Source of the DNA: an uncultured Flavobacteriaceae bacterium
GTDB taxonomy: Bacteria > Bacteroidota > Bacteroidia > Flavobacteriales > Flavobacteriaceae
Assembly: GCA_947494325.1 (NCBI GenBank)
Contig: CANLUS010000002.1
Span: 372,001-436,000, forward strand
DNA: 64,000 nt
Direction: 5' to 3'
Of the stretch, positions 4,477 to 60,047 are shown in pieces. Every line of letters begins with the position of its first letter. The stretch's first letter is position 1. Under the pieces are notes generated by a model. The model saw only the letters and a list, made by a program, of their open reading frames with translations. It had not been told where the DNA came from and ran no database searches. The position numbers were made by a program, and so were the translations under genes.

Positions 4477-5163
4477 TTAATCGTTAAAATCGGTATCCAT
4501 TTTGATATAATCTAAAAACTCACGTTTTACCGAATCATTTTTAAATTTACCACCAAATTCAGACGTTACTGTACTACTGGCTACATCACGAATTCCTCTT
4601 GAATTCACGCATAAATGCTTTGCATCAATCACACAGGCCACATCTTCGGTGCCCAAGGCTTGTTGTAATTCTTGCACTACTTGCATTGTTAAACGCTCTT
4701 GTACCTGTGGACGTTTTGCATAAAAATCTACAATACGATTCATTTTAGAAAGGCCAATGACATTGCCATTTGAAATATAGGCAACATGTGCTTTTCCTAC
4801 AATTGGTAATAAATGATGTTCGCAAGTAGAATATACAGTGATATTCTTCTCCACTAACATCTCGCCATATTTGTAATTGTTATCGAAAGTAGATGCCTTA
4901 GGTTTTCTTTTAGGATTTAAACCTCCAAAAATCTCTTTTACAAACATCTTCGCCACACGTCTTGGTGTTCCTTTGATGCTGTCATCGGTTAAATCCATAC
5001 CCAATGTTTGCAGTATATTGGCTACGTCGCCTTCAATTGACTTTATTTTCTCATCATCAGACAATTCAAATGCATCCTCTCGTAAAGGTGTTTTTGCTGA
5101 TGTAAATATATGATCATCTCCTATTTCTTCTATCATATCTTTTCCTGATTTCCCTTCAAACAT
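4477..5163 (-). CDS. folE: GTP cyclohydrolase I
   Basis: FolE converts GTP to 7,8-dihydroneopterin triphosphate, the first step of tetrahydrofolate (and biopterin) synthesis, as a cytosolic homodecamer. The 228-residue protein has the zinc-binding CEHHLLP motif (Cys and His ligands, about residues 113-116) and the third ligand in KHLCVNSRG, together with the conserved GLSKMNRIVDFYAKRPQVQERL segment. The N-terminal 40 residues are variable and polar. It follows hisS on the same strand, separated by 21 bp, and has its own promoter-like boxes overlapping the hisS 3' end. Confidence 0.97.
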   Translation of the reverse strand: MFEGKSGKDMIEEIGDDHIFTSAKTPLREDAFELSDDEKIKSIEGDVANILQTLGMDLTDDSIKGTPRRVAKMFVKEIFGGLNPKRKPKASTFDNNYKYGEMLVEKNITVYSTCEHHLLPIVGKAHVAYISNGNVIGLSKMNRIVDFYAKRPQVQERLTMQVVQELQQALGTEDVACVIDAKHLCVNSRGIRDVASSTVTSEFGGKFKNDSVKREFLDYIKMDTDFND

Positions 5164-5179
5164 TCTCCTAAATTTTAAG

Positions 5180-5211
5180 CAAAATTACGAATTTTGTACT
5201 GCTTTGAGCAA
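5180..5211 (-). promoter_or_regulatory. Candidate promoter for folE inside the hisS 3' end
   Basis: The minus strand shows TTG (5211-5209), 21 nt of spacer and TAATTTTG (5187-5180), matching TTG...TANNTTTG. The -7 box lies 17 nt before the folE ATG, so the leader would be very short. Confidence 0.5.
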
Positions 5212-6858
5212 TTCTTCCAAGTTATAGGTAGTTTGCTCACCAGTATTCATATTTTTTAATGTGTATGTATTATTTTCTAATTCATTCGAACCTACCATTA
5301 CCACGAACTCAATAGCACGTTTATTGGCATAGTTCATCTGTTTTTTTAGTTTGGCACTATCTGGATAAAGTTCAGTTTTTATATCGCTTTCGCGGAAGCT
5401 TTTTACTGCTTTCAAACAGTATGCTGCTTCATCGGCGCCAAAGTTTAAAAACAACACTTTTGGTGTTGGCAAGATTACTTTTTCAAACAGGTCTAACTCT
5501 TCCAAGACCAAATAAATTCGATCCAATCCAAACGAAATACCAATCCCACTCATATTATTCAATCCGAAAATTCCTGTTAGGTCATCATATCTTCCACCTC
5601 CGCCAATAGAACCTAACTTCACGTCATTCGCTGAAACTTCAAATATAGCTCCTGTATAATAATTAAGTCCTCGAGCCAAGGTCACATCTAAAGCTAAATT
5701 AGCTGATTTCAAACCTAATTTCATTATATTTTCTAATACAAATTGTAAATCTTCTATACCTTGAGTTCCTTCGTCGGAACCTGATAATAGAACTTTCAAT
5801 TGATCTAGTTTTTCTTGATTCGTACCATTTAGATTGAACAATGGTTGAACTTTTTCAATTGCCGTTTCGGTAATCCCCTTAGCAAGCATTTCTTTTACAA
5901 CGCCTTCTTTACCTATTTTATCTAACTTATCTAAGGCAACCGTAAAATCGATCAGTTTATCACTGGCACCAATAATTTCGGCAATTCCAGATAAGATCTT
6001 TCTATTATTTAGTTTGATGGTAGTTGTAATTCCTAAATCAGTAAATATGGCATCGTATAACTGAATAAATTCTACTTCTTGAAAAAGTGATTTACTCCCA
6101 ACAACATCAGCATCACACTGATAAAATTCTCTGTAACGTCCTTTTTGAGGTCTATCAGCGCGCCAAACGGGCTGCATCTGAAAACGTTTAAACGGAAATA
6201 CAATATCATTTTGATGTTGCACGACGTAACGCGCAAAGGGAACAGTAAGATCGTAACGAAGGGCTTTTTCAGAAAATTTTGAAGTTTTTTTATAAAAATC
6301 TTTCTTTAAATATGCAGAAAAACATTTTGCTACTAAATTATTCATAAAATAATCCCCCATACTTTTGTTAATCTCACTAAAATTTATAATTTGGGCATAT
6401 CTAGTCAGCGAATACCATAACTCTTGCTTGGATATACTAAGTAATTCGTACTGTTCATCAGAAAAGGAATATAAACCTTTATACCAAGAACTTTGAAATC
6501 TGCTATCCTTTACATCCATCTTAAACAACATAGAATCAGGTGAAATCCTTTCTTTCATTTCTATATAGCCATTCAATAACAGATTTTTAATATCATCAAC
6601 AACTCCAGCATAAGAAATGTCTTTATCAATATCTTTAAGATAATCCCCAGAATTTAAAATTTTAAAAATGAGACGATCTCCTTCTTCACCGTATTTCCCC
6701 ATCAAGGTCGAAGAATTTTCAAAACTTGGCGTTTCGATAGCCTGAAAGCCATACAATTCGAATGATCGTTGAATAGTATTGAATATGTACTTTCGTTTTG
6801 CTACTTCGGTAGGTGAGAAATCTCTAGTTCCTTTAGGGATGCCGGGTTTTTGTGCCAT
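5185..6858 (-). CDS. hisS: Histidine--tRNA ligase with a long insertion
   Basis: This class II aminoacyl-tRNA synthetase charges tRNA-His. It has motif 1 ([11 protein letters not shown] and following), motif 2 ([23 protein letters not shown]), the histidine-specific [15 protein letters not shown] segment, motif 3 ([12 protein letters not shown]) and a C-terminal anticodon-binding domain. At 557 residues it is about 90 longer than its usual flavobacterial size of about 460. The excess lies between GD72 and the SEKALRYDL block at 196. There an aromatic, helix-rich stretch replaces the usual short loop. The frame is intact throughout, so the gene is likely functional. The folE gene follows on the same strand. 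Confidence 0.95.
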
Positions 6859-42608: not shown

Positions 42609-44738
42609 TTACCATAAGTAAATTTCATCAACAAACATCCACGCTGCAGTACCGGCACCTGGATGCCATTTCGGTAATACTTTAAAGTTTTTGACGATTA
42701 TCTTAAAATATCGAGCTGATGTACTCGGAATTTTGAGTGTTACTTTTTTTAGTTCAGGTCCACCTCCACCTTGTCCTTTTCTAGAAATCTTAACTGCTCC
42801 TAATTTTTTGAACGTACCATTTTTATCATTTGATGCGTATACTTCAAGTGCTTTTGGAAAAAAAATGTAATTGGCAACATTCTCTAAACAGTTTATAGAT
42901 ATATTATCGACAGTCTTTTCAACTCCTAAATCAATTGTCGTATTTATATCAAATCCGAGAAAGCCAGTCCATTGACTATCTTTGAATGATAGTCCCCCTT
43001 CTTCTAAATCAAATAATTCACCAGCGTTTGGATAGCGAACATCAGGTTTATCCACTATAGTGAAACTAGGTACTGAATGTTTAATTTTGACATATTCTAC
43101 CGTTGCAGTTTCGCTAGGTAACCAACCCTTTTTAAATGCCGCAATTTTCAAGGTTTTAGAATTATTAAGAACAAGTTGATCTTTAAATAGTTGCGAAGTA
43201 GAATCTGGCTCCTCACCGTTTAGCGTATAACGCAATTCTATGTTCTTCAATTTGCTTTCTATATTTAAATTTATAGAATCAACAAACAGCGTATTTGCAG
43301 GCGTTATTATAGGTCCCTCTAACCTACTTATTTCAACAAAGCCTTCTTGAATATCATTTTGAATTTTTACCTCATATTCTGATGCTAGTCTATTTGCTGT
43401 TTCTCTATCAACTCTGGTTTTCCAAGAATAGATTTGTCGCGGTTGGATTTCTTTTAACAGTTCTTCGAGACCTATATTCGAAATTGCAGTGTTATATACG
43501 TTAAGTACTTCTAAATTTTTTAAACTTTTTAAATTCTTGAGGGATTTGTCTGTAATCTTCGAACTATTTAGGCGCAGTGATCTTAAGTTTTTAAGCTTCT
43601 TTAACACGCCTGTCATCTGATCGGTTATTTCTATATCATCAAGGTCTAGCTCTACAATTTGTTCTTTTAAGGCAGTAAGTTTGGCAATAGTATTATTTGT
43701 TGGCAATTGCTCAAGGAGTTTCACATTTAACTCAGCCTTTCCTGGCACGAGCTCTAACACTCTGAAACCAGCCTCTCTTACCTCATTTATGTTGCTTCTA
43801 GATGCTTTGGAGATATTAACTTTATTAAATACCAAATAGTTATTGAGTAACTTTATTACCGTATCATTTTGTGCATTCGTAACATAATTATCAAAATCTA
43901 GACCTTCTTCGATCCATTTTTCTATGAGTTTTATCTCATCTTTAGTTAACTGTTCTTTACCTTCAGGAGGCATATGATCTTCATCAGTTATTGGTAGGAG
44001 TAACTGCTCATATAGCAAACTTTTATGCGCATTTCCTGCAAGCAATACTTCACCACTTTCGCCACCGCTCAATATGTCCATTTTAGATACTAAAGATAAG
44101 TCGCCTTTTCTTTTTGTAGTGTTATGACATTGTACACATTTTTTATCCAAAATTTTAACGATGACGTCATTGTACATTCGTAAACTGTCAACGACTTCAA
44201 TGGTGCGCTCTTTTTTAGCTGGAACCGCATATTCTGTCAAAAAATTATCGCCATGAGTAAGTACGCTTCCAAAGTGACCAGCAACACTAATACTCACAAG
44301 CGACAGTACAAATAAGGGTAGAAAGGTTTTGGACGCTTTAAAGTTTTCTTTTCGACTTAATAAAAACAACACTGTTGTCAATAATGCCGTCAATATCCCA
44401 GTATAAAAATGAAGATCCAAGGTTTCTTCCTGATAGCCACCTTCTAAGGATAGAAAATAACCCAAAACACTCGTGATGATTGAAAAAAACGCTGAAAATC
44501 CCAAGATATTTCTCACTGTAGTTGCTGGGTAGTTATTTTGAAAACGACCCAGAATATCAATGAAAAAAGCAACCACTAAAGCTCCTATAGGCAAGTGCAG
44601 CAATAAAGGGTGAAAGCGTCCAAAAAACAGAATTATACGAGGTGCTTCATCCCCAGTATCCGCATGCACATAACTTGAACTTAGCACTAAAAACATGAAG
44701 AGTATAACTCTTTTGTATATCTGATTAGTTTTTTCCAT
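42609..44738 (-). CDS. Membrane cytochrome c with DUF2231, LRR, chitobiase-like and discoidin-like domains
   Basis: The 709-residue fusion has, in order: a first hydrophobic segment (11-26), a DUF2231-like membrane domain with four helices (41-155; RFHPLLLHLPIGAL, H43 and H48), a planctomycete-type cytochrome c domain with CVQCH at 201-205 and a possible Met ligand in HMPPEG (256), leucine-rich repeats (about 365-430), a chitobiase-like (CHB_HEX) beta domain (about 485-550), and a galactose-binding-like C-terminus (575-709). It would anchor a heme-carrying, sugar-binding protein in the inner membrane. Its start overlaps the stop of the next upstream gene by one base. Confidence 0.85.
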   Translation of the reverse strand: MEKTNQIYKRVILFMFLVLSSSYVHADTGDEAPRIILFFGRFHPLLLHLPIGALVVAFFIDILGRFQNNYPATTVRNILGFSAFFSIITSVLGYFLSLEGGYQEETLDLHFYTGILTALLTTVLFLLSRKENFKASKTFLPLFVLSLVSISVAGHFGSVLTHGDNFLTEYAVPAKKERTIEVVDSLRMYNDVIVKILDKKCVQCHNTTKRKGDLSLVSKMDILSGGESGEVLLAGNAHKSLLYEQLLLPITDEDHMPPEGKEQLTKDEIKLIEKWIEEGLDFDNYVTNAQNDTVIKLLNNYLVFNKVNISKASRSNINEVREAGFRVLELVPGKAELNVKLLEQLPTNNTIAKLTALKEQIVELDLDDIEITDQMTGVLKKLKNLRSLRLNSSKITDKSLKNLKSLKNLEVLNVYNTAISNIGLEELLKEIQPRQIYSWKTRVDRETANRLASEYEVKIQNDIQEGFVEISRLEGPIITPANTLFVDSINLNIESKLKNIELRYTLNGEEPDSTSQLFKDQLVLNNSKTLKIAAFKKGWLPSETATVEYVKIKHSVPSFTIVDKPDVRYPNAGELFDLEEGGLSFKDSQWTGFLGFDINTTIDLGVEKTVDNISINCLENVANYIFFPKALEVYASNDKNGTFKKLGAVKISRKGQGGGGPELKKVTLKIPSTSARYFKIIVKNFKVLPKWHPGAGTAAWMFVDEIYLW

Positions 44739-45520
44739 TATTTAAATATCCATTCATCCATAAATAACCAAGCCTTATTACCTTTTCCATCATGCCAATC
44801 TGGAATGGCATTTAGATTCATAATTTCTATGTGAATTGAATTTAATTCTTTACCAATTGGAACTTGTACATCGCGCAACGCTTTTGGTTCTTGTTGGTTT
44901 AACCTAGGAACTTCAATCTCAATGGTATCCATTTCATCGGAAGAAATGCGGACACTCGTAGGAGGAAATATCCATGAGGCCACATCGACTAAATACCCGA
45001 TATTAATCGATTCGATGAATCTTTTCTTCTTAAAATAAATATCCGCTACAGCTGTAGAATCAAAACCTACCCATTCCTTGCTTCTGAAATTTAATCCTGC
45101 TTTTTCTTGATTAATCACTGTAGAAGTACCTAATCCTTCATAGGCATTATTTGGACTCGTATGCCACTCTATGTTACTTGGAACTATCCCTTTTTTATAC
45201 AGTTTTAATATCGTTATATCACTAGACTTCCAAGAAGGATGAAAAGCCTTAAAGGTATAGATACCTTCACTCTTCGATCTAAATGGTTTCTCATACTTCA
45301 TAGATCCGATGGTTGGTTCAGAGCCGTCATCTGTGTAAAAAATTTCGACGCCGTCTAACTTTAAAGCAGCTGTAACCACAACCGACGAGTCAATGATAGC
45401 ACTTGTTGATGAAACTTTTGGTTGTGCTAAGGCAATTTCTTTTTCTTGCAACAACCTAGTCTCGGTTTTTTTGGTGCAACCCAACACAACAAAAAACGAT
45501 ATGATTAAAATTAATCTCAT
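44738..45520 (-). CDS. Lipoprotein with chitobiase-like and discoidin-like domains
   Basis: This 260-residue lipoprotein (lipobox VLGC, Cys15) has a chitobiase-like domain (about 35-110: VEIFYTDDGSEPTIGSMKYEKPF). A C-terminal beta-sandwich (about 125-260) ends IPDWHDGKGNKAWLFMDEW. Both halves are clearly related to the C-terminal half of the neighbouring 709-residue cytochrome protein, where the same positions read LPKWHPGAGTAAWMFVDEI. It probably binds carbohydrate at the cell envelope. It overlaps the propeller gene by 4 nt and the cytochrome gene by 1 nt, so the three are co-translated. Confidence 0.8.
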   Translation of the reverse strand: MRLILIISFFVVLGCTKKTETRLLQEKEIALAQPKVSSTSAIIDSSVVVTAALKLDGVEIFYTDDGSEPTIGSMKYEKPFRSKSEGIYTFKAFHPSWKSSDITILKLYKKGIVPSNIEWHTSPNNAYEGLGTSTVINQEKAGLNFRSKEWVGFDSTAVADIYFKKKRFIESINIGYLVDVASWIFPPTSVRISSDEMDTIEIEVPRLNQQEPKALRDVQVPIGKELNSIHIEIMNLNAIPDWHDGKGNKAWLFMDEWIFK

Positions 45521-46560
45521 ACTCTGGTGAGTTTAATAGGATATGTTTGTCCCGAATTCCACTGAGCTACGTACATATTTTCATCATCATCAATACATAC
45601 ATCATGCGGATGTTGAAACAGTCTCACCGTTTGATATAACTCATCCAGTTGATTGTCTTTATATAAAGGTGCAGTAGCTCCTGGACAAGAAACAACTTCG
45701 TTTTTATCATTCATAATCAAAACAAAACCCGAGTCAGAATTCGAAGCATTTTTTGATTGTAAAACTGCAAAATAAATATCTTTTTTATGAATAACGGGGC
45801 GACAAATTAATGCTCCAGGTACCTTTATTGACTCCATAAAATCACCATTCAAGTTGAATCTTTTTAACATATTCATTTCTCTCGCAGAAATTAGAAGGGA
45901 CCGATTTTTAGGATCTCTATCATCATAACATATACCGTGCGCGTTCAAAAACTGTCCATCTCCTTTTCCTCGACCTCCGAAATAATTTAGTAATTCTCCT
46001 TTGTAATTATAATGGATAATATGTTGTTTTCCATAACCATCAGCTACATAAAAATCACCATTTTCAAGCACAGCAGTTTCGGTAGGATTAAATTCTTCTT
46101 TAGATTCATATTTTCCAGTGTCTGCTGGATAATCTATTACAAAAATAACTTTACCATCAATGGTTGTCTTAATAATTTGATGACGTTCATAGTCGGTGAT
46201 TAATAAAAAATCACTTCCATTTTCTTTCACTAAGGTTAGGCCATGAGCTCCAGGATATTTTGTTCCCCAAGTTTCTAATAGCTTACCTGATTTATCATAA
46301 ATAATTACATTATTTTTCGTATGATTTGTTAACAAAACAATTCGTCCTTTCGAATCTTGAACCATTTCATGACAATCTTGAACTGGTGTTCTTAAAGGAT
46401 CTAAATTTCCCCAAGATAAATCAACTTTATATTGATGTGAATTATGACCTATGATTACATCCTCAGTTCTACTTAGGGAAAAAGCACTGCTATAAGCAGG
46501 ATAGGCAAACAAACCCAGCGCAAGGCAAGAAGACCTTTTCAAAAATTTTCTACGACTCAT
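45517..46560 (-). CDS. Tat-exported six-bladed beta-propeller resembling peptidyl-alpha-hydroxyglycine lyase (PAL)
   Basis: The 347-residue protein starts with a textbook twin-arginine signal (SRRKFLK, residues 2-8), then NHL-type propeller blades. Compared with PAL, the lyase half of peptide-amidating enzyme, it keeps GAHGL (H106), DGYGKQ (Y176), GQFLNAHGI (H208) and HPHDV (H319). These correspond to the three zinc His and the catalytic Tyr as I recall them from the mammalian enzyme. Export in folded form suits a metal protein. It may cleave a hemiaminal- or hemiacetal-like product, but no monooxygenase partner is visible. It is third in the cytochrome/DUF1501 operon. Confidence 0.8.
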   Translation of the reverse strand: MSRRKFLKRSSCLALGLFAYPAYSSAFSLSRTEDVIIGHNSHQYKVDLSWGNLDPLRTPVQDCHEMVQDSKGRIVLLTNHTKNNVIIYDKSGKLLETWGTKYPGAHGLTLVKENGSDFLLITDYERHQIIKTTIDGKVIFVIDYPADTGKYESKEEFNPTETAVLENGDFYVADGYGKQHIIHYNYKGELLNYFGGRGKGDGQFLNAHGICYDDRDPKNRSLLISAREMNMLKRFNLNGDFMESIKVPGALICRPVIHKKDIYFAVLQSKNASNSDSGFVLIMNDKNEVVSCPGATAPLYKDNQLDELYQTVRLFQHPHDVCIDDDENMYVAQWNSGQTYPIKLTRV

Positions 46561-46571
46561 ATAACAATTAA

Positions 46572-48029
46572 TTAACTTAAAATATCATGAACAACATGAC
46601 CAGAAACATCAGTTAATCGAAAACGTCTTCCTTGGTGTTTGTGTGTAAATTTAGTATGATCTACTCCCATCAAATGCATCATGGTAGCTTGTAAATCATG
46701 CACATGCATAGGGTCTTTTACAATATTATAGCCGAATTCATCTGTTTCACCGTATGTAAAACCAGGTTTAACACCACCACCGGCCATAAACATGGTAAAA
46801 CACTTTGGGTGATGATCTCTACCATAGTTTGTTTCTGTAAGGGTTCCTTGACTATAGTTCGTTCGACCGAATTCACCCCCCCAAACGACTAATGTATCTT
46901 CTAAAAGGCCTCGTTGTTTTAGGTCGGTTATTAATGCTGCTGTAGCCTGATCAATATCCTTTGCTTGTTTTTCAATTTGAGTAGGTAAATTTTCGTGCTG
47001 ATCCCATCCCATGTGATATAATTGAACAAATCGAACATCTTGCTCTACTAGTCGTCGAGCTAATAAACAATTAGCTGCATAGGTACCAGGAATTGCTGCA
47101 TTTGCTCCGTACATTTGAATGATGTGTTCGGGCTCATCGTCAATGTTCATTGTAGTTGGTACAGAAGTTTGCATACGATATGCCATTTCATATTGAGCAA
47201 TTCTACTATTTATTTCAGGATCTCCGAACTCTTCTTCTTGTTTCGCATTTAATTCGCTAATATGATCGAGCATTTTTCTTCTCTCTTTTCTACTCATCCC
47301 TTCAGGATCTTTCAAATATAGCACTGGATCTTTTCCTGAACGAAATTGTACTCCCTGATGTAAAGAACTTAAAAAACCATTTCCCCAGAGACGTGAATAC
47401 AATGGCTGAGATAGCGGTCTCCCTGTACCTCGCGAAAGTAAAACTGTGAATGTGGGTAAATTGTCATTTAGACTTCCGAGGCCATAGCTCATCCAAGAAC
47501 CAATACTAGGCCTTCCTGCTTGTTGTGATCCTGTTTGAAAAAACGTGATTGCTGGATCATGATTGATGGCTTCGGTATGCATTGATTTTACGAAACATAA
47601 TTCATCTACAATTTTAGCAGTATATGGCATCAGTTCACTCACCCAGGCTCTAGACTCTCCGTATTGATTGAATTTAAAATTACTTCCAACTAATGGGAAC
47701 GTAGCTTGACCAGAAGTCATGCCTGTTAAGCGCTGTCCTTTCCGAACAGAATCTGGTAAATCTTGCCCCCTCATCTTATTTAATAATGGTTTATAATCAA
47801 ACAACTCTAATTGAGAAGGTCCTCCACTTTGAAAAAGGTAGATAACTCTTTTTGCTTTCGGTGCGAAATGAGGTAAATTCATTCCTGCCAATGGGGAATC
47901 ATCAGCTTCAACTAAAGCCGAAAACGGATCTAACATCGACGCCGCCGCTAGTCCACCAATACCTAAACTTAGTTTTTTAAGAAAATGTCTACGATTATTA
48001 TTGAGAAAGTGTTTTGCTATTTCTTCCAT
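46572..48029 (-). CDS. DUF1501 protein, Tat-exported, alkaline-phosphatase-like fold
   Basis: The 485-residue protein has a twin-arginine signal (NNRRHFLKK, R13-R14) and the DUF1501 blocks KRVIYLFQSGGPSQLELFDYKP, FVKSMHTEAINHDPA, RFVQLYHMGWDQHENL, LVVWGGEFGRTNYSQG and GRDHHPKCFTMFMAGGGVK. DUF1501 is related to the sulfatase/alkaline phosphatase superfamily; these conserved Asp and His could bind metal. No member has a firmly known reaction. DUF1501 genes nearly always pair with PSD1-type cytochrome genes, as here, 5 nt apart. It probably acts in the periplasm. Confidence 0.92.
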   Translation of the reverse strand: MEEIAKHFLNNNRRHFLKKLSLGIGGLAAASMLDPFSALVEADDSPLAGMNLPHFAPKAKRVIYLFQSGGPSQLELFDYKPLLNKMRGQDLPDSVRKGQRLTGMTSGQATFPLVGSNFKFNQYGESRAWVSELMPYTAKIVDELCFVKSMHTEAINHDPAITFFQTGSQQAGRPSIGSWMSYGLGSLNDNLPTFTVLLSRGTGRPLSQPLYSRLWGNGFLSSLHQGVQFRSGKDPVLYLKDPEGMSRKERRKMLDHISELNAKQEEEFGDPEINSRIAQYEMAYRMQTSVPTTMNIDDEPEHIIQMYGANAAIPGTYAANCLLARRLVEQDVRFVQLYHMGWDQHENLPTQIEKQAKDIDQATAALITDLKQRGLLEDTLVVWGGEFGRTNYSQGTLTETNYGRDHHPKCFTMFMAGGGVKPGFTYGETDEFGYNIVKDPMHVHDLQATMMHLMGVDHTKFTHKHQGRRFRLTDVSGHVVHDILS

Positions 48030-48034
48030 TATTC

Positions 48035-50392
48035 TTATCCTTTTACTATTGCTTCATCTAAATTAAAAACCAAACTTGTTAGAACACTATAAGCGTATAC
48101 TTTTTTTGCTGTAGCGGAACTTTTCAAAAGACTTAGTTCAGTAGTGTCGGTTTTATTCTCAGTATAGCCTTGTTCCGTTTCTAGCAAAAATTTTAATAAA
48201 TTATCAATTTCGGTAACATCAGGATTACGAGAAGTAATCATTCTAAATATTCGTTTAACACGATCTTCATCACTTAAATTTTCGTCATTTAGCACCTTGA
48301 TAGCCAAAACATTTGCTGCTTCAATTAATTGAGGATCGTTGAGCATCACTAAAGCTTGCAAAGGTGTGCTCGTCTTTTGTCTTTGAACCGTACAATAGTC
48401 TCTAGTTGCTGCATCAAATGTCATCATTGCCGGTGGTGGAACTGTACGCTTCCAAAAAGTATAAAGACTTCTGCGGTAAAGATTTTCACCCGAATCCATA
48501 AAATATTTTGTAAGACCTTGACCCGATGTTGTTTCGGCCCATAACCCAGCAGGTTGATATGGTTTTACACTAGGACCACCCAATTTATCAACAAGTAATC
48601 CGCTAATTTTAAGAGCATTATCCCGTATCATTTCTGCTGTTAATTTATGTCTTGAACTCCTTCCTAACCATTTGTTATCTGGATCTATTTCTAAAGCGGC
48701 GTTGCTTGTTTTGGTGGTTTGTTGATATGTATAGGACATGACCATTCTTTTAATCATTTTTTTCATATCCCATCCTTCTTCTCGAAAGGTAATGGCCAAC
48801 CAATCTAATAGTTCAGGATGCGTCGGAAGAGCTCCTTGATTACCAAAATCTGAGCTTGAGGCCACTATCCCCATTCCAAATATTTGTTGCCACAATCTAT
48901 TAACAGCAACTCTAGATGTAAGTGTATTTTTCTCATCAAACAACCAATTCGCTAATCCCAATCTATTCTTTTCAAAACCGTCGTCAAACTCTAAAACTGC
49001 CGATGGCGTTCCAACGGTAACTTCATCACCATGGGCATCATAAGCACCTCTATTAAGTATAAACGTTTTTCTTTCAGGAGCATCGTCCTTCATCACCATT
49101 AGCTTCACTTCTTTAATCGTGTCTGGCATATTTATAAAAGAAAGTACACCTTCAATTTCATTTGGCGATATCTTAATATTTGGTTCTGGGATTTCATCAT
49201 ACTCTATTCTACCTTTCTCATTTACTTTATTAAAAAATCCATAAAAACTATAATATTCTTTTTGAGAAATTGGATCGTATTTATGGTCATGACATTGAGC
49301 ACATTCCATCGTTAACCCTAACATAGACTTTGATACTGTATTTGCTCTATCAAGCACATATTCAACTCTATATTCTTCGTCAATTACACCGCCCTCTTGA
49401 GTAATTTTATGATTTCTATTGAACCCTGTAGCTAATACTTGCTCGAGGGTGGCGTTTGGCAACAAATCTCCTGCCAACTGCCATCTTACAAAAGTGTCAT
49501 AAGGAATGTTTCGATTGAAAGCACTAATCACCCAATCTCTCCAAGGCCACATAACACGTTCTAAATCATCTTGATAACCATGCGTATCAGAATAGCGGGC
49601 TATATCCAACCAGCTTGAAGCCATATGCTCTCCATAAGTCGTCGATTCTAATAATTTATCGACTATTTTCTCGTACGCCTTATCACTTGTATCCGCCAAA
49701 AATGAGTCTATATCCTCTAGACTTGGCGGTAGGCCAGTGAGGTCAAAATAAGCGCGTCTAATTAATTTCTCTTTACTTGCTTTTTCAGAAGGGGATAAAC
49801 CATGTTGTTCTAATGACTTTACTATAAAATTGTCTATCTCATTCGAAATTACATTCGTGTTTGAAATTTTTGGAATTTCTTTTTTTATAGGAGGGACGAA
49901 GGCCCAATGATCTTTCCATATTGCTCCTTGCTGCACCCATTTTGTCAATACCTTCTTCTCATAATCGCTAAGACTAAGATTTGAAGTTTCTGGAGGCATT
50001 CGTTTCTCAATATCAGTATTGTTAATCCTAAAAACAAGTTGACTGGCCACAGTATCTCCCGGAACAATTGCAAATTTATCTAAATGTTCTCCAATAGCAG
50101 CATAGGCACCTTCTTTAGTATCTAGACGTAAATTTGCTTCACGTGTACCTTCATCAGGACCATGACATAAGTAACACCTATCAGATAAAATAGGTTTTAC
50201 ATCAAATATGTAATCGATAGTTTCCGGTATTTTTTGATTCCCCGAAAATGATTTCTGAGAGTCCGCAACAACCGCTGTATAGGAGTCAGTATTACCGCTC
50301 TTTACATACTTATAGAGCAGTAGCATCATAAAAGGTATCATAAAATATAGCACCCATACATACCATTTTGTATATCTTTTATCCGAGGTCAT
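48035..50392 (-). CDS. PSD1-type c-type cytochrome (PSCyt1, DUF1549, DUF1553)
   Basis: The 785-residue protein has one N-terminal membrane helix (about 11-30) and a PSCyt1 heme domain with CYLCH (73-77) and RMPPE (about 131). DUF1549 follows (about 185-390), with the second heme-like motif CAQCHDHKYDP (364-374), then DUF1553 (about 490-745; LTSRVAVNRLWQQIFGMGIV, RRSLYTFWKRTVPPPAMMTFDA). It is shorter than many planctomycete PSD1 proteins, with a small central linker and no lectin-like insert. It is presumably a periplasmic, membrane-tethered redox enzyme or electron carrier. It opens the seven-gene operon that ends with two GH92 genes. Confidence 0.92.
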   Translation of the reverse strand: MTSDKRYTKWYVWVLYFMIPFMMLLLYKYVKSGNTDSYTAVVADSQKSFSGNQKIPETIDYIFDVKPILSDRCYLCHGPDEGTREANLRLDTKEGAYAAIGEHLDKFAIVPGDTVASQLVFRINNTDIEKRMPPETSNLSLSDYEKKVLTKWVQQGAIWKDHWAFVPPIKKEIPKISNTNVISNEIDNFIVKSLEQHGLSPSEKASKEKLIRRAYFDLTGLPPSLEDIDSFLADTSDKAYEKIVDKLLESTTYGEHMASSWLDIARYSDTHGYQDDLERVMWPWRDWVISAFNRNIPYDTFVRWQLAGDLLPNATLEQVLATGFNRNHKITQEGGVIDEEYRVEYVLDRANTVSKSMLGLTMECAQCHDHKYDPISQKEYYSFYGFFNKVNEKGRIEYDEIPEPNIKISPNEIEGVLSFINMPDTIKEVKLMVMKDDAPERKTFILNRGAYDAHGDEVTVGTPSAVLEFDDGFEKNRLGLANWLFDEKNTLTSRVAVNRLWQQIFGMGIVASSSDFGNQGALPTHPELLDWLAITFREEGWDMKKMIKRMVMSYTYQQTTKTSNAALEIDPDNKWLGRSSRHKLTAEMIRDNALKISGLLVDKLGGPSVKPYQPAGLWAETTSGQGLTKYFMDSGENLYRRSLYTFWKRTVPPPAMMTFDAATRDYCTVQRQKTSTPLQALVMLNDPQLIEAANVLAIKVLNDENLSDEDRVKRIFRMITSRNPDVTEIDNLLKFLLETEQGYTENKTDTTELSLLKSSATAKKVYAYSVLTSLVFNLDEAIVKG

Positions 50393-54822: not shown

Positions 54823-55812
54823 CTATAAATTATTATCTTTAGTAAACTGAATCACCTCACTTAATTTTCCAAAAGCCATAGCTACCACAGTATCTGCAGC
54901 TCCATAATAAACAACTAGTTTATCCTCCTTATGGTCATGAAGTGCTGCGCAAGGAAAAACAACATTTGGCACATCTCCAACCTGCTCATACAGTGTTGTT
55001 GGAGTTAATAAATATGGTTGGGTTCTATAGCTCACTTTATCTGGTTCATTCTCATCTAACAATGCGGCTCCCATTGCATATCGAAAGCCATTACACGTAT
55101 TAATCACACCATGATACAACATTAACCATCCTTCGTCTGTTAAAATTGGAATGGGGCCAGCACCAATCTTAGTACATTGCCAAGCACTATCTTCAAAAGC
55201 CGTTGCTTTCATAACGCAACGATGTTCGCCCCAATATTTCATATCGGGACTATAACTTATATAGATATCACCAAAAGGGGTGTGCCCGTTATCACTTGGA
55301 CGGCTTAACATTGCGTAGTTACCATTTATTTTTTGCGGAAATAAAACCCCATTTCGATTAAAGGGCAAAAAAGCATTTTCGCATTGAAAAAAATCTATAA
55401 AATCAAAGGTATAGGCAATTCCGATAGTCGGCCCATGATACCCATTGCACCAAGTTATCCAATAGCGGTCATCAATAAAAACTACTCTCGGATCATATTT
55501 ATATTCAGACTCAATCATTGTCGTATTTCCTTGCTGCATTTTAATTGGGTTATGGTTAATATCCCAATCTATTCCGTTCTTACTAAAGCCTGCATATATA
55601 TTCATTTGTACCGCTTTATTATCGCATCTAAAAACTCCCGCAAACCCATCCTTAAATGGCACGACTGCACTATTGAAAATACTATTTGAACTTGGAATCT
55701 GATTTCTTTTGATAATAGGGTTCTCTGAGTACCTCCACATTACTTCATTGCAATCTTCTGGTTTTTCTTGCCAAGGAATATTACTCAGATCTTGTTTTGT
55801 TTTATTTGTCAT
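54823..55812 (-). CDS. GH130 beta-mannoside phosphorylase
   Basis: The 329-residue cytosolic protein is a five-bladed propeller of family GH130: [32 protein letters not shown], the presumed catalytic Asp in KYDPRVVF (D107), [50 protein letters not shown] and [14 protein letters not shown]130 enzymes phosphorolyse beta-1,4-mannosyl linkages, for example Man-GlcNAc from the N-glycan core, giving mannose-1-phosphate. No signal peptide is present, so the disaccharide must first be imported, which fits the SSS symporter gene 9 nt upstream. Confidence 0.93.
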
Positions 55813-55821
55813 TATCTACTG

Positions 55822-57699
55822 TTAATTTGGAAGTTTTCTAACTTTATCTAACCACGTAAATTTAAGTATGATAGATGTAGTAACAAAAACTATTAATGCA
55901 ACAATCGCTTTCGGATAATCTCGAATGATAAAATAAATAGGTAATACGATCATACTAGATTGCCAAATAACACCAATAGCACAATTGAACATATCAAACC
56001 AAAAATTACCATTCTTCACTATCAAACTGTCTGTTTTTTGAATCTCTTTGTATACTGGGCGCCACCAACCCCAAGGTTGTACACTTTTATAAAAATCTTT
56101 TAATACCTTCATATCAGTAGGTTTACTTAAAAAAGTTCCTAAAAAAGAGCCCAATAATGAAACAAAAAAGATAATCGGAAATAAATAGATTGCATGAATA
56201 CGAGATAGATCGAATAAAATTGAATCTTGAGCAAAGCTGTTTTTATGCTGATCAAGAAAAAATTGTAATGAGGCAATAATTAAACCAGCTAGCATTCCCC
56301 AAAAGTAGCCCCATCCGTTAAATCGCCACCAAATCCATTTTAAAAAGTTCGCCGCGACATAACCTCCGAAGAGAGCACTCGTAATCCATAGTGTTAAAGA
56401 GTTTATTGAATTAGCAAAAAAGCCCATAAATACGCCCAACGCTACAATAGCGACTGAGGCAATATGACTGGCTTTCACATAATGTTTGTTGGAAGCATGG
56501 CTCTTGAAATATTTTTTATAAATATCATTGACAACATATGCTGGGCCTGCATTAACAAAGGCGGAAAAGGTTGACATAAATGCTGCCAATAAAGCTGCTA
56601 GTAGCAAACCCTTAATTCCAATTGGAACATGAAAGTTAATAACTTTTGGTAGGAGTACTTCTAAATCGCCACCGTTCAAAAGTGGATTGGCATTCATTTC
56701 AGGACCCAATTTCACTAAAGCAATCACGACAATTCCAGCAATTAAAAGGTATCTTGGTATAAAGAGTATTAAATTCGTAAAACCACTCATGTATGCGGCT
56801 TCTTTCACTGACTTTGTAGATAATATTCGTTGCAAATCGTAACTAGGAACCGGTCCCGCAATACTCGCAAAAAAACCTTTAAAAAGAGTCATTCCAATCA
56901 GCGCTCCAAACATTTTATAACCTTCCGAATCAATTAAGGCATTAAACGCTTGATATTTTTCGCTCCAATGCGCTTCTAATTCCCATCCAAAAAACATATT
57001 TCTCCATTCTTCGGAAATCACAGAGGCAATTTCAATATCGCTAATTGTAAAAAAGGCATATCCTGCAATTAACAAACCAGCGAGCACCATAATACCATAT
57101 TGCAGTACTTCGGTTGCCACCACAGAAAACATCCCTCCTTTTATAGTATAAATAGTTGTTAAGGCAATAATTATGATCGCATACGACTGTTCTGAAGTAA
57201 GTAGTACGCCACCTCCCATCAATAATTCTAAGTTCCAAGGTAGTATAATCGTCATGAACTTACCCACCCCTTCAAAGAAATACGCAATAAATCCAATTGA
57301 AGAAATTACAGCAAAAATCGCCACAATTATATGTGATGCTCTACCTGCTTTTCCATCTCCGAAACGAGTTAAAATCCACTCAGAGCCTGTCATAATATTC
57401 GACCGTCGTATCCATACGGCCAAAAACATCATGATGAAAATCTGATTCCATATTGGCCACATCCACATAAACATAAAACTCTTCACACCATACAGAAAGA
57501 GTATACCTACCATCCATGCAGTACCTGACACATCAAACATACCAGAACCATTACTCAATCCTAAATAATACCATTTAATATTATTTCCTCCTAAAAAATA
57601 GGATTTTAGTCCTTTTGAAGCTCGCTTTGACACCCAAATTCCAACAACGAGGGTAATGAGAATATAAATTGCAATTATTGCTATATCAATGCTATTCAT
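55822..57699 (-). CDS. Sodium:solute symporter (SSS family), probable glycoside importer
   Basis: The 625-residue inner-membrane protein has 13 or more helices and the SSS signatures SKGLKSYFLGGNNIKWYYLGLSNGSGMFDVSGTAWM and GLLLAALLAAFMSTFSAFVNAGPAYVVNDIYKKYF, with a hydrophobic C-terminal extension (about 555-620). It uses the sodium gradient, as expected for a marine organism, to import a small sugar or glycoside. Its position between GH92 and GH130 suggests the mannosyl disaccharide or mannose as the cargo. Gene spacing is 9-12 nt on either side, so all four genes are one operon. Confidence 0.93.
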   Translation of the reverse strand: MNSIDIAIIAIYILITLVVGIWVSKRASKGLKSYFLGGNNIKWYYLGLSNGSGMFDVSGTAWMVGILFLYGVKSFMFMWMWPIWNQIFIMMFLAVWIRRSNIMTGSEWILTRFGDGKAGRASHIIVAIFAVISSIGFIAYFFEGVGKFMTIILPWNLELLMGGGVLLTSEQSYAIIIIALTTIYTIKGGMFSVVATEVLQYGIMVLAGLLIAGYAFFTISDIEIASVISEEWRNMFFGWELEAHWSEKYQAFNALIDSEGYKMFGALIGMTLFKGFFASIAGPVPSYDLQRILSTKSVKEAAYMSGFTNLILFIPRYLLIAGIVVIALVKLGPEMNANPLLNGGDLEVLLPKVINFHVPIGIKGLLLAALLAAFMSTFSAFVNAGPAYVVNDIYKKYFKSHASNKHYVKASHIASVAIVALGVFMGFFANSINSLTLWITSALFGGYVAANFLKWIWWRFNGWGYFWGMLAGLIIASLQFFLDQHKNSFAQDSILFDLSRIHAIYLFPIIFFVSLLGSFLGTFLSKPTDMKVLKDFYKSVQPWGWWRPVYKEIQKTDSLIVKNGNFWFDMFNCAIGVIWQSSMIVLPIYFIIRDYPKAIVALIVFVTTSIILKFTWLDKVRKLPN

Positions 57700-57711
57700 A
57701 AGTAGTGTGTC

Positions 57712-59964
57712 CTATCGTTGAGTTCCCCAATTTTTATTGGGTATTTTTCCCATTTTTAAATGAAGAGTTCCACCTTTAATTAATTCTGAATGTGTAATAC
57801 TTGTGCGATTAAACTTATTTCCGTTTAGCGTGGCTGATTGTATGTATCTATTCTCATCAGAAGTCTTTTCGGCAATAATTGTAAAAATCTTATTATCAGC
57901 TAATTTTAAGGTGGTTTTAGTAAATACTGGACTACCGATCTGATATTCTCCCGAAGCAGGATCAACAGCATAAAGGCCAATTGCACTTAGTACATACCAA
58001 GCTGACATTTGGCCGCAATCCTCATTGCCGCTTAACCCGTCTGGGGTATTGTTGTATTGTGTTTTTAAAATTTCACGCACCCAGTATTGCGTTCTCCATG
58101 GCTTATTGGCATAATTAAATAAGTAGGCAATATGATGACTTGGTTCATTGCCATGGGCATATTGCCCAATCAAACCCGATATATCTGGAGAAACGTCATC
58201 CCCATTAATTTCTGAAGATTCTGTAAAAAGTTGTTCTAATTTATTGGTAAAAGCCTCTTCTCCTCCGAACATATTCTTTAAGGCTAGAGGATCATGTAAT
58301 ACGAACCAACTATGCTGCCATGCATTTCCTTCAGTATAATCAGCTTGTTTCCGATGTGCCGAATGTTTGGGATCGAAGGGTTCTCGCCATGCCGTACCTT
58401 CTTTATTTTTACCTCTCATGAATCCAGTTTCTGGATCAAACAAATGCCTATATGCCTTGGATCTATTTAGAAAATAAGTATGATCTTCATCTTTTCCTAA
58501 AGCCTTAGCGATTTGCGCCACACAATAATCATTATAGGCGTATTCTAAGGTAATGGTTACAGATTCTTCTAATAGATCATGAGGAATATAACCGTACTTT
58601 TTATAATGATCAAGACCACGATCATCTTGCATCATTGTAGCCTTCATCGCCTCATAAGCCTTTTCAATATTAAACCCTTTTATTCCTTTGATATACGCTT
58701 CTGAAATTACTGGTATCGAGTGATATCCGATCATGGTATTTGTCTCATTGCCATAAAGGGTCCAGACTGGCAATTTTCCCTTAACGGAATAATACACCAA
58801 CATTGAATTTATCATATCTGGTACTTTATCTGGTGCAACTAAGGTTAACAACGGATGCGCCGCCCGAAATGTATCCCACAATGATAATGTTGAATAGGAT
58901 TCATGATTCGTTTTTACAATAGAATCATTTTCTAAGCGAAATTCACCATTTACGTCATTAAACACTACAGGAGCTACTTGCGTATGATACAACGCAGTAT
59001 AAAAAGTTGTTTTTAAATCTTCATTTGGCGTTTCAACGGTCACTTTCGACAGGAGAGCATCCCATTCATTATTTGCTGATGCTTTAATTTCATCAAAAGC
59101 GAATTTTCCACTATGAGCGTTCATATTTGCCAATGCATTTTCAACACTCACAGAAGATATGGCCACCTTTACATAAATGTTCTGTTTTGTAAGTGTATTG
59201 AAATATAGTTGGGCAGCGGTAGTTACGCCAGTAACTTCGTTATTTTTACTATAATTTGCATTTTCTACCAAAGTATAGTCGGATAAAGACTTAGAAAATT
59301 TGATGGCAAAAAACACTTTCTGATTTTTCGCCCATCCTGTGCTATGACGATACCCTACGAGCGTATGTTTATCTACAACTTTGATGTTAGAAGCTGTTGT
59401 TTTATCCCAATTAGTGGTGTATCCTAAATCCAAAACGACAGATTGAATGTCTCCTTTTTCAAAGGTATATTTATGAAACGCTGTTCTTAAATCTGATGTT
59501 AATTCAGCCCTAATATTATGATCATTTAAAAATACTGCATAATAGCCAGGACTCGCAGTTTCCTTCACATGTTCGTATGTTGACTTGTATGGTATCTGAT
59601 CACGGTTTTCAAAAGTCTGAGCGAGATTCACCTTTTTATTAATTGGCATTAATCTAATATCAGTTAAATCACCAATTCCTGTCCCACTTAAATGCAAATG
59701 ACTAAAACCTACTGTAATTGAATCAGTATAATGATATCCAGAGCACCAATCCCATCCTTGAGTTCCATTATCCGGACTCACTTGAAGCATACCGTTGGGA
59801 ACAGTTGCTCCAGGATAGGTATGACCATGTCCTCCAGTTCCAATAAATGGATCTACATAATCTGTCACGTACACCTTAGAAGGAGCTGTATTTTTTTCAG
59901 AAACATTACATGAAACTGCATGAAATAATAGCACTATAAAATAGCTTAAATAGATTGTCTTCAT
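57712..59964 (-). CDS. GH92 alpha-mannosidase lipoprotein (third of three)
   Basis: I start at the ATG at 59964 (750 residues), which gives a lipoprotein signal (MKTIYLSYFIVLLFHAVSC); the upstream in-frame codon at 59976 is a TTG. GH92 blocks are complete: VDPFIGTGGHGHTYPGATVPNGMLQVSPD, LSLWDTFRAAHPLLTL, TEGNAWQHSWFVLHDPLAL and the consensus GNEDCGQMSAWYV, followed by the C-terminal NKNWGTQR. It is the most canonical of the three copies and should release alpha-mannose at the envelope. It heads the GH92-SSS-GH130-CBM9 operon. Confidence 0.95.
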   Translation of the reverse strand: MKTIYLSYFIVLLFHAVSCNVSEKNTAPSKVYVTDYVDPFIGTGGHGHTYPGATVPNGMLQVSPDNGTQGWDWCSGYHYTDSITVGFSHLHLSGTGIGDLTDIRLMPINKKVNLAQTFENRDQIPYKSTYEHVKETASPGYYAVFLNDHNIRAELTSDLRTAFHKYTFEKGDIQSVVLDLGYTTNWDKTTASNIKVVDKHTLVGYRHSTGWAKNQKVFFAIKFSKSLSDYTLVENANYSKNNEVTGVTTAAQLYFNTLTKQNIYVKVAISSVSVENALANMNAHSGKFAFDEIKASANNEWDALLSKVTVETPNEDLKTTFYTALYHTQVAPVVFNDVNGEFRLENDSIVKTNHESYSTLSLWDTFRAAHPLLTLVAPDKVPDMINSMLVYYSVKGKLPVWTLYGNETNTMIGYHSIPVISEAYIKGIKGFNIEKAYEAMKATMMQDDRGLDHYKKYGYIPHDLLEESVTITLEYAYNDYCVAQIAKALGKDEDHTYFLNRSKAYRHLFDPETGFMRGKNKEGTAWREPFDPKHSAHRKQADYTEGNAWQHSWFVLHDPLALKNMFGGEEAFTNKLEQLFTESSEINGDDVSPDISGLIGQYAHGNEPSHHIAYLFNYANKPWRTQYWVREILKTQYNNTPDGLSGNEDCGQMSAWYVLSAIGLYAVDPASGEYQIGSPVFTKTTLKLADNKIFTIIAEKTSDENRYIQSATLNGNKFNRTSITHSELIKGGTLHLKMGKIPNKNWGTQR

Positions 59965-60047
59965 TCTGGCAAACAAGTAATTATTATATCGATAATATTA
60001 GTTATAGTTATAAATATTTATAAATTTAGCTAGTAAAAAAATTTAAT

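Follow-up and report, generated by a model that had tools for sequence, protein, structure and literature searches.

The 64,000-nucleotide stretch of DNA analysed here (the window) encodes a six-bladed NHL propeller of the peptidyl-alpha-hydroxyglycine lyase (PAL) superfamily, which by its sequence is a branch that keeps the predicted metal site of PAL but has an altered pocket, and is distinct from PAL. The gene (45517–46560, minus strand; 347 amino acids; identified by Pfam, HHalign, AlphaFold2 and Foldseek) lies with adjacent PSD1 and DUF1501 genes, as in PSCyt/PSD1/DUF1501 cassettes, and across Bacteroidota genomes it co-occurs with PSD1. We tentatively favour the reading that the product is a Tat-exported zinc propeller acting as a hemiaminal or hemiacetal lyase, whose partner oxidase would most likely be the exported PSD1 protein. 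Export, already proposed in an earlier sequence-only reading of this DNA, would be directed by a Tat-like (twin-arginine-like) leader at the N terminus (MSRRKFLKR, with the motif SRRKFLK).

Pfam assigned NHL repeats and DUF5128 to the 347-residue protein. A single-sequence search of the PDB found PAL (3fvz, which we take to be the rat PAM chain) with an E value of 1.1e-4, ranked below TRIM-type NHL domains, and a search with the family profile found it at 7.4e-14, below five TRIM or Thin sequences. The AlphaFold2 model (80 sequences; mean pLDDT 90, pTM 0.85) is predicted to have the six-bladed NHL propeller fold of PAL, and its top Foldseek match was 3fvz (E 1.7e-15, TM 0.68/0.71). Superposition by VIA-align gave Z 30.0 and 2.8 Å over 275 residues at 20% identity; PAL was highest in identity and aligned length among the matches listed, and its Z score tied with those of TRIM/Thin NHL domains (30–31). 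This tie counts against a lyase and touches on a different role, in which a metal would be structural and the propeller would be a scaffold or electron-transfer adaptor holding PSD1, DUF1501 and a membrane cytochrome together. Propellers commonly act as scaffolds, TRIM NHL domains use the same fold and the gene recurs within a cytochrome cassette; we nonetheless regard such a role as decidedly unlikely, given the residues described below. Metal-dependent gluconolactonases have the same fold (Z about 26), and the likeness observed between SMP-30/gluconolactonase and the window propeller is one of fold.

The residues tie the family to PAL more closely. HHalign of a 98-row family profile with PAL (probability 97–98%) paired H106 with H585, Y176 with Y654, H208 with H690, R227 with R706, H319 with H786 and D320 with D787, and a mafft alignment gave the same columns (PAL letters were taken from the PDB output, with PAM numbers as chain index + 491 according to the 5wm0 row). 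We take H585, H690 and H786 to be the zinc ligands of PAL, Y654 to be catalytic and Arg706 to be a residue that does chemistry there. The corresponding minus-strand codons in the window are those of H106 (46243–46245), Y176 (46033–46035), H208 (45937–45939), R227 (45880–45882) and H319 (45604–45606), and all five residues are invariant across the 98 aligned rows, the window included; none of the remaining His, Tyr or Arg of the propeller, which has 12 His and 19 Tyr, reaches 98/98 identity. The sequence-only reading had numbered H106, Y176, H208 and H319 correctly in this open reading frame and had lined them up with PAL, staking the comparison in part on the conservation of the three His among relatives, and the alignments bear this part out. 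These rows comprise the window, 79 of 80 selected loci and 18 places in class genomes, one of them (L048) distant; the 80 loci are the best 80 of 578 relatives and therefore close to the window propeller. Selection used patterns at residues 62–69 and 83–92, so that conservation at C63/H64/E65 and N83/N84 is biased, and the five invariant residues lie outside both patterns. One locus with an internal stop (L070) was left out of the alignments; this Maribacter MAG copy (4844–5875 of that locus) carries the stop in frame. By DSSP, H106, H208 and H319 are each the second residue of a strand (105–113, 207–213 and 318–323, respectively), and in the model we take these to be the inner strands of blades 2, 4 and 6. 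As for the scaffold role, the Tyr and Arg, whose equivalents do chemistry in PAL, are as invariant as the putative ligands, which argues against it.

As a control, we took the best NHL open reading frame from each of 12 other propeller loci (L019–L030, from the class search) and aligned it with the family profile by HHalign. None of the 12 control propellers has the three His at 106/208/319; a single His occurs in two local alignments (L028 at 208, L027 at 319), Arg at 227 in 1 of 12, and Tyr at 176 in 2 of 12 (L019 and L024), so that Tyr alone is not specific. The NHL domains of TRIM2, TRIM3 and Thin place one His on the H208 column. By the same method, His-Tyr-His-Arg-His at 106/176/208/227/319 is found in 3fvz, five distant plasmid relatives, L048, L199 and Persicobacter, and Mesorhizobium has Asp in place of the Arg. 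PAL gave HHalign E values of about 1e-9 to 1e-12, which fall among those of the controls (about 1e-5 to 1e-12), so that the family is tied to PAL by its residues rather than by the score. Much better E values, 1e-16 or lower, were reached by the distant plasmid relatives with the same residues. An earlier HMMER control was weak, its matches never reaching the H319 column and spanning the H106 column in just 3 stretches. We rejected a generic NHL repeat protein as an explanation, given that the His set is found in 0 of 12 control propellers.

The identity with PAL suggested by the sequence-only reading does not hold at Arg533, which we presume to be a substrate-contacting, catalytic residue. 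The window has N79 at this position (codon 46324–46326, minus strand; HHalign and a 19-row alignment), and the column in the 98 family rows reads Asn in 89 and Asp in 9. Seven rows of the 19-row alignment are PAL and six distantly related bacterial proteins taken from plasmid records (Mesorhizobium, Bradyrhizobium, Rhodococcus, Priestia, Thioclava and Caballeronia); R533 is Arg in all seven of these and Asn, Asp, Thr, Gln or Gly in 12 of 12 family rows, whereas the His triad and Tyr are kept in 19 of 19 rows and the R706 equivalent in 18 of 19 (Asp in Mesorhizobium). S518–G519 of PAL are H64–E65 in the window propeller. An earlier profile alignment disagrees at the R533 column—among the five intermediates covered it reads Arg in two (Mesorhizobium and Thioclava) and Asn in Bradyrhizobium, Rhodococcus and Priestia—and the R533 register therefore rests on the 19-row alignment; neither mafft nor sub-profile HHalign gave a credible register for this position (PAL blade 1). 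A quick tree (thinned from 145 to 126 rows; L070 and L187 left out as too short) has a branch, supported by an SH-aLRT of 99, with PAL and the six distant relatives together on the same side; several long branches blur finer placement. Because R533 is replaced by Asn or Asp, we conclude that the propeller is not PAL itself, and a carboxylate-bearing alpha-hydroxyglycine substrate is unlikely. A true PAL acting on peptidyl-alpha-hydroxyglycine would account for the retained His triad and the Tyr654 and Arg706 equivalents, and distant relatives are named PAL family in database records; the consistent loss of R533 makes it highly improbable. A PHM partner (Cu2_monoox_C, PF03712) had no match in the window's own genome, and the 14 controls were equally without a match.

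That distant relatives are linked to PAL is already known from databases. Three such PAL-family proteins (L132, L201 and L133) are about 24–27% identical to the window propeller, share its His triad and Tyr, and have Arg706 in two of three; they differ in keeping the R533 equivalent and group with PAL across the SH-aLRT 99 branch. The first of these, on a Mesorhizobium plasmid (L132, 5980–6900), combines the R533 equivalent with Asp at Arg706 and adjoins ectoine-utilization genes. Nearer plasmid relatives (Moraxella, Acinetobacter and Catenovulum; 39.6–44.1% identical) belong to the same family as the window propeller, with the triad, Tyr and R227 in 4 of 4 aligned, and their records carry the names '6-bladed beta-propeller', 'peptidylglycine monooxygenase-like protein' or 'hypothetical protein'. 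Two Catenovulum plasmid copies lie with DUF1553, DUF1501 and cytochrome genes, one of them in a different order, whereas the Moraxella and Acinetobacter copies are found not in the cassette but by a glycyl-radical enzyme. In both of the latter (Moraxella osloensis, L129, 5507–10065; Acinetobacter towneri, L204, 4507–9065), the glycyl-radical enzyme and its activating enzyme directly precede the propeller, and transposase genes are near. These hosts are usually considered aerobic.

Another difference from PAL is the setting of the window family in a cytochrome cassette. In the window, all on the minus strand and assigned by Pfam, the genes run in the order PSD1 (48035–50392; PSCyt1, DUF1549 (PSCyt2) and DUF1553, with CxxCH at residues 73 and 364), DUF1501 (46572–48029; Tat-like leader), propeller, a small CHB_HEX_C/Fn3_assoc protein (44738–45520; lipoprotein-like start, by eye) and a membrane cytochrome (42609–44738; DUF2231, PSCyt1 with one CxxCH, Fn3 and F5/8C, with weak LRR matches), spaced by gaps of 5 and 11 bases and then overlaps of 4 bases (propeller and small protein) and 1 base. 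The two neighbouring c-type cytochromes noted in the sequence-only reading are thus PSD1 and the DUF2231 protein, on either side of the propeller. Both PSD1 CxxCH motifs are invariant in an alignment of 55 sequences, made up of the window and 54 of 67 relatives found; the second falls within DUF1549. Fold searches of the PDB with a PSD1 model matched only the cytochrome c domain (FoxE and hydrazine synthase), and the DUF1549/DUF1553 part was without clear match, which is no proof of a new fold. The cytochrome domain families of the cassette are shared with the PSCyt/PSD1 'planctomycete-specific cytochrome' genes, to which the parts of PMC5615132 available to us ascribe no known function; CBM domains and neighbouring sulfatases are described there, without mention of a PAL-like member. 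Among the papers listed in our searches of the open-licence literature, none deals with a PAL-like protein of bacteria in a cassette of this kind.

The cassette recurs among relatives of the propeller. At 98 loci of relatives, tblastn found DUF1501 at 79, PSD1 at 73, the cytochrome at 83, the small protein at 35, SusC at 11 and GH92 (query, the first GH92 gene of the window) at 16, counted within the stretches fetched, some of which end at contig ends, in a set that leans to close relatives. Gene order varies, the propeller being first at three loci (L068, L108 and L116), and the genes also occur together in two Catenovulum plasmids (Gammaproteobacteria) and one Calditrichia MAG. The window's own genome has one propeller and one PSD1, both in the cassette. 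Among 395 Bacteroidota genomes, 47 encode a close propeller relative (E ≤ 1e-30), 49 PSD1 and 140 GH92; propeller and PSD1 occur together in 38, the propeller alone in 9, PSD1 alone in 11 and neither in 337 (odds ratio 129, P 2e-34). With kinship adjusted for by genus collapse alone, the counts for 170 genera were 25, 4, 6 and 135, respectively (P 3e-20). Several observations count against the proposed lyase with PSD1 as its partner: 11 of 49 PSD1 genomes are without the propeller, PSD1 and DUF1501 are both in the fetched stretch at 21 of 53 propeller places in this sample, and four genomes whose copy was not classed as leaderless are without PSD1 (G231, G280, G630 and G297). In several genomes a single propeller accompanies at least five PSD1 matches, which might mean that one lyase serves multiple oxidases. 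The propeller gene itself is patchy: 0 of 8 other genomes of the same family in one sample have it and a genome of the same genus (G377) is without it, far families have it, and in the 395-genome sample two genomes of the same family carry it (G400 and G445).

The window also contains three GH92 genes, a GH130, SusC/D and a sulfatase, and because of these a mannose-rich glycan is probably degraded at this locus. The mannose-related cluster extends over 54823–59976 with a GH130 mannooligosaccharide phosphorylase, a sodium:solute symporter and the third GH92. The sequence-only reading had proposed an oxidation-then-cleavage reaction at an N-linked or O-linked position of the glycan. Its chemical part gains from the PSD1 co-occurrence and from leaderless copies near PhyH genes (below), but its glycan target does not: the cassette is often without GH92, as the 16 of 98 loci indicate, and odds ratios with GH92 in the 395 genomes were 2.1 for the propeller (P 0.02) and 1.6 for PSD1 (P 0.15). 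We rejected a propeller function tied to GH92 on the basis of this weak co-occurrence.

Copies without the leader occupy different neighbourhoods. Seven of 53 places were leaderless by eye (G110, G175, G145:C94, G463:C72, G304, G320 and G397), and among the other 46 the start is partial or unclear in a few (L187, L195 and L199). Genomes with leaderless copies only had PSD1 in 0 of 5, compared with 38 of 42 other propeller genomes (P 8e-5); that some copies have neither an export leader nor a PSD1 in the genome also speaks against a scaffold for the cassette. A PhyH gene lay within 5 kb on the same strand at 3 of 7 leaderless places versus 0 of 46 others, where 0.25 would be expected for the 53 places together and 0.05 for the seven leaderless ones, a comparison made after the first two cases had been noticed. 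On a Persicobacter plasmid, PhyH lies 2.6 kb from a leaderless copy on the opposite strand, and a glycyl-radical enzyme is also near. Leaderless PAL-like copies near PhyH-type dioxygenases are seen at L047 (8957–12036), L042 (8887–14932), L185 (5721–10344) and L134 (5673–9933), the second and third of which also have DHDPS-family aldolases. Among 88 proteins encoded near non-cassette copies (86 of the 101 listed, plus two PhyH-candidate genes, from L042 and L185, added deliberately), Pfam pointed to no common partner; the beta-lactamase family was counted 11 times and PhyH 3 times.

The neighbours of some relatives are glycyl-radical enzymes or trehalase, Gfo/Idh, GMC or DHDPS-family enzymes; no single reaction fits them all, which counts against the lyase reading. 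The sugar enzymes beside several relatives (trehalase, Gfo/Idh, GMC and DHDPS-family aldolases, together with a NanM-like kelch protein and AP_endonuc_2) raise the question of whether the same metal site might carry out another sugar reaction: ring opening (mutarotase-like), lactone hydrolysis or epimerization. Opening a hemiacetal ring is, as established chemistry, the same bond chemistry as hemiaminal cleavage, and the gluconolactonases of the same fold are metal-dependent. We consider such a reaction unlikely, however, since the residue set is the three His and Tyr of PAL and since, of the two partners tested, the heme protein PSD1 was strongly associated and the GH92 hydrolase weakly.

In PAL, zinc holds the substrate hydroxyl and Tyr654 acts as the base. 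Given that the window family retains the residue set of PAL except for R533, the most economical reading is that the propeller breaks the same kind of bond in a different hemiaminal or hemiacetal. For the proposed lyase, a partner oxidase would hydroxylate a carbon adjacent to N or O, the putative His3–zinc site of the propeller would bind the new hydroxyl, and Y176 would serve as the base, whereupon the C–N or C–O bond would break and a carbonyl fragment be released. The oxidase here would most likely be the PSD1 protein of the same cassette, with its two heme motifs, and electrons may exit through the PSCyt1 membrane protein. We know of no PSD1 protein established as an oxidase, and we infer this role from the co-occurrence and the heme motifs. 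A comparable division of labour is described in the parts of PMC12508155 available to us, where MgdH and MgdL, a hydroxylase followed by a dedicated hemiaminal lyase, carry out methylguanidine demethylation; these are unrelated proteins, MgdL having, according to that paper, no sequence relationship to PAL. A broader and somewhat doubtful proposal is that the PSD1/DUF1501 cassettes of Bacteroidota carry out heme-driven oxidative cleavage, in which PSD1, bearing two hemes, would hydroxylate a carbon adjacent to O or N outside the cytoplasm and the propeller would collapse the resulting hemiaminal or hemiacetal, the same lyase being re-used in the cytoplasm with PhyH-type dioxygenases.

A conserved cassette neighbour with the metal-site and catalytic residues of a well-studied lyase offers a concrete reaction type for an uncharacterized heme-protein cassette. 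PAL is the enzyme that finishes animal peptide hormones by amidation, and the proposed reaction, if true, would widen PAL-type chemistry beyond peptide amidation.
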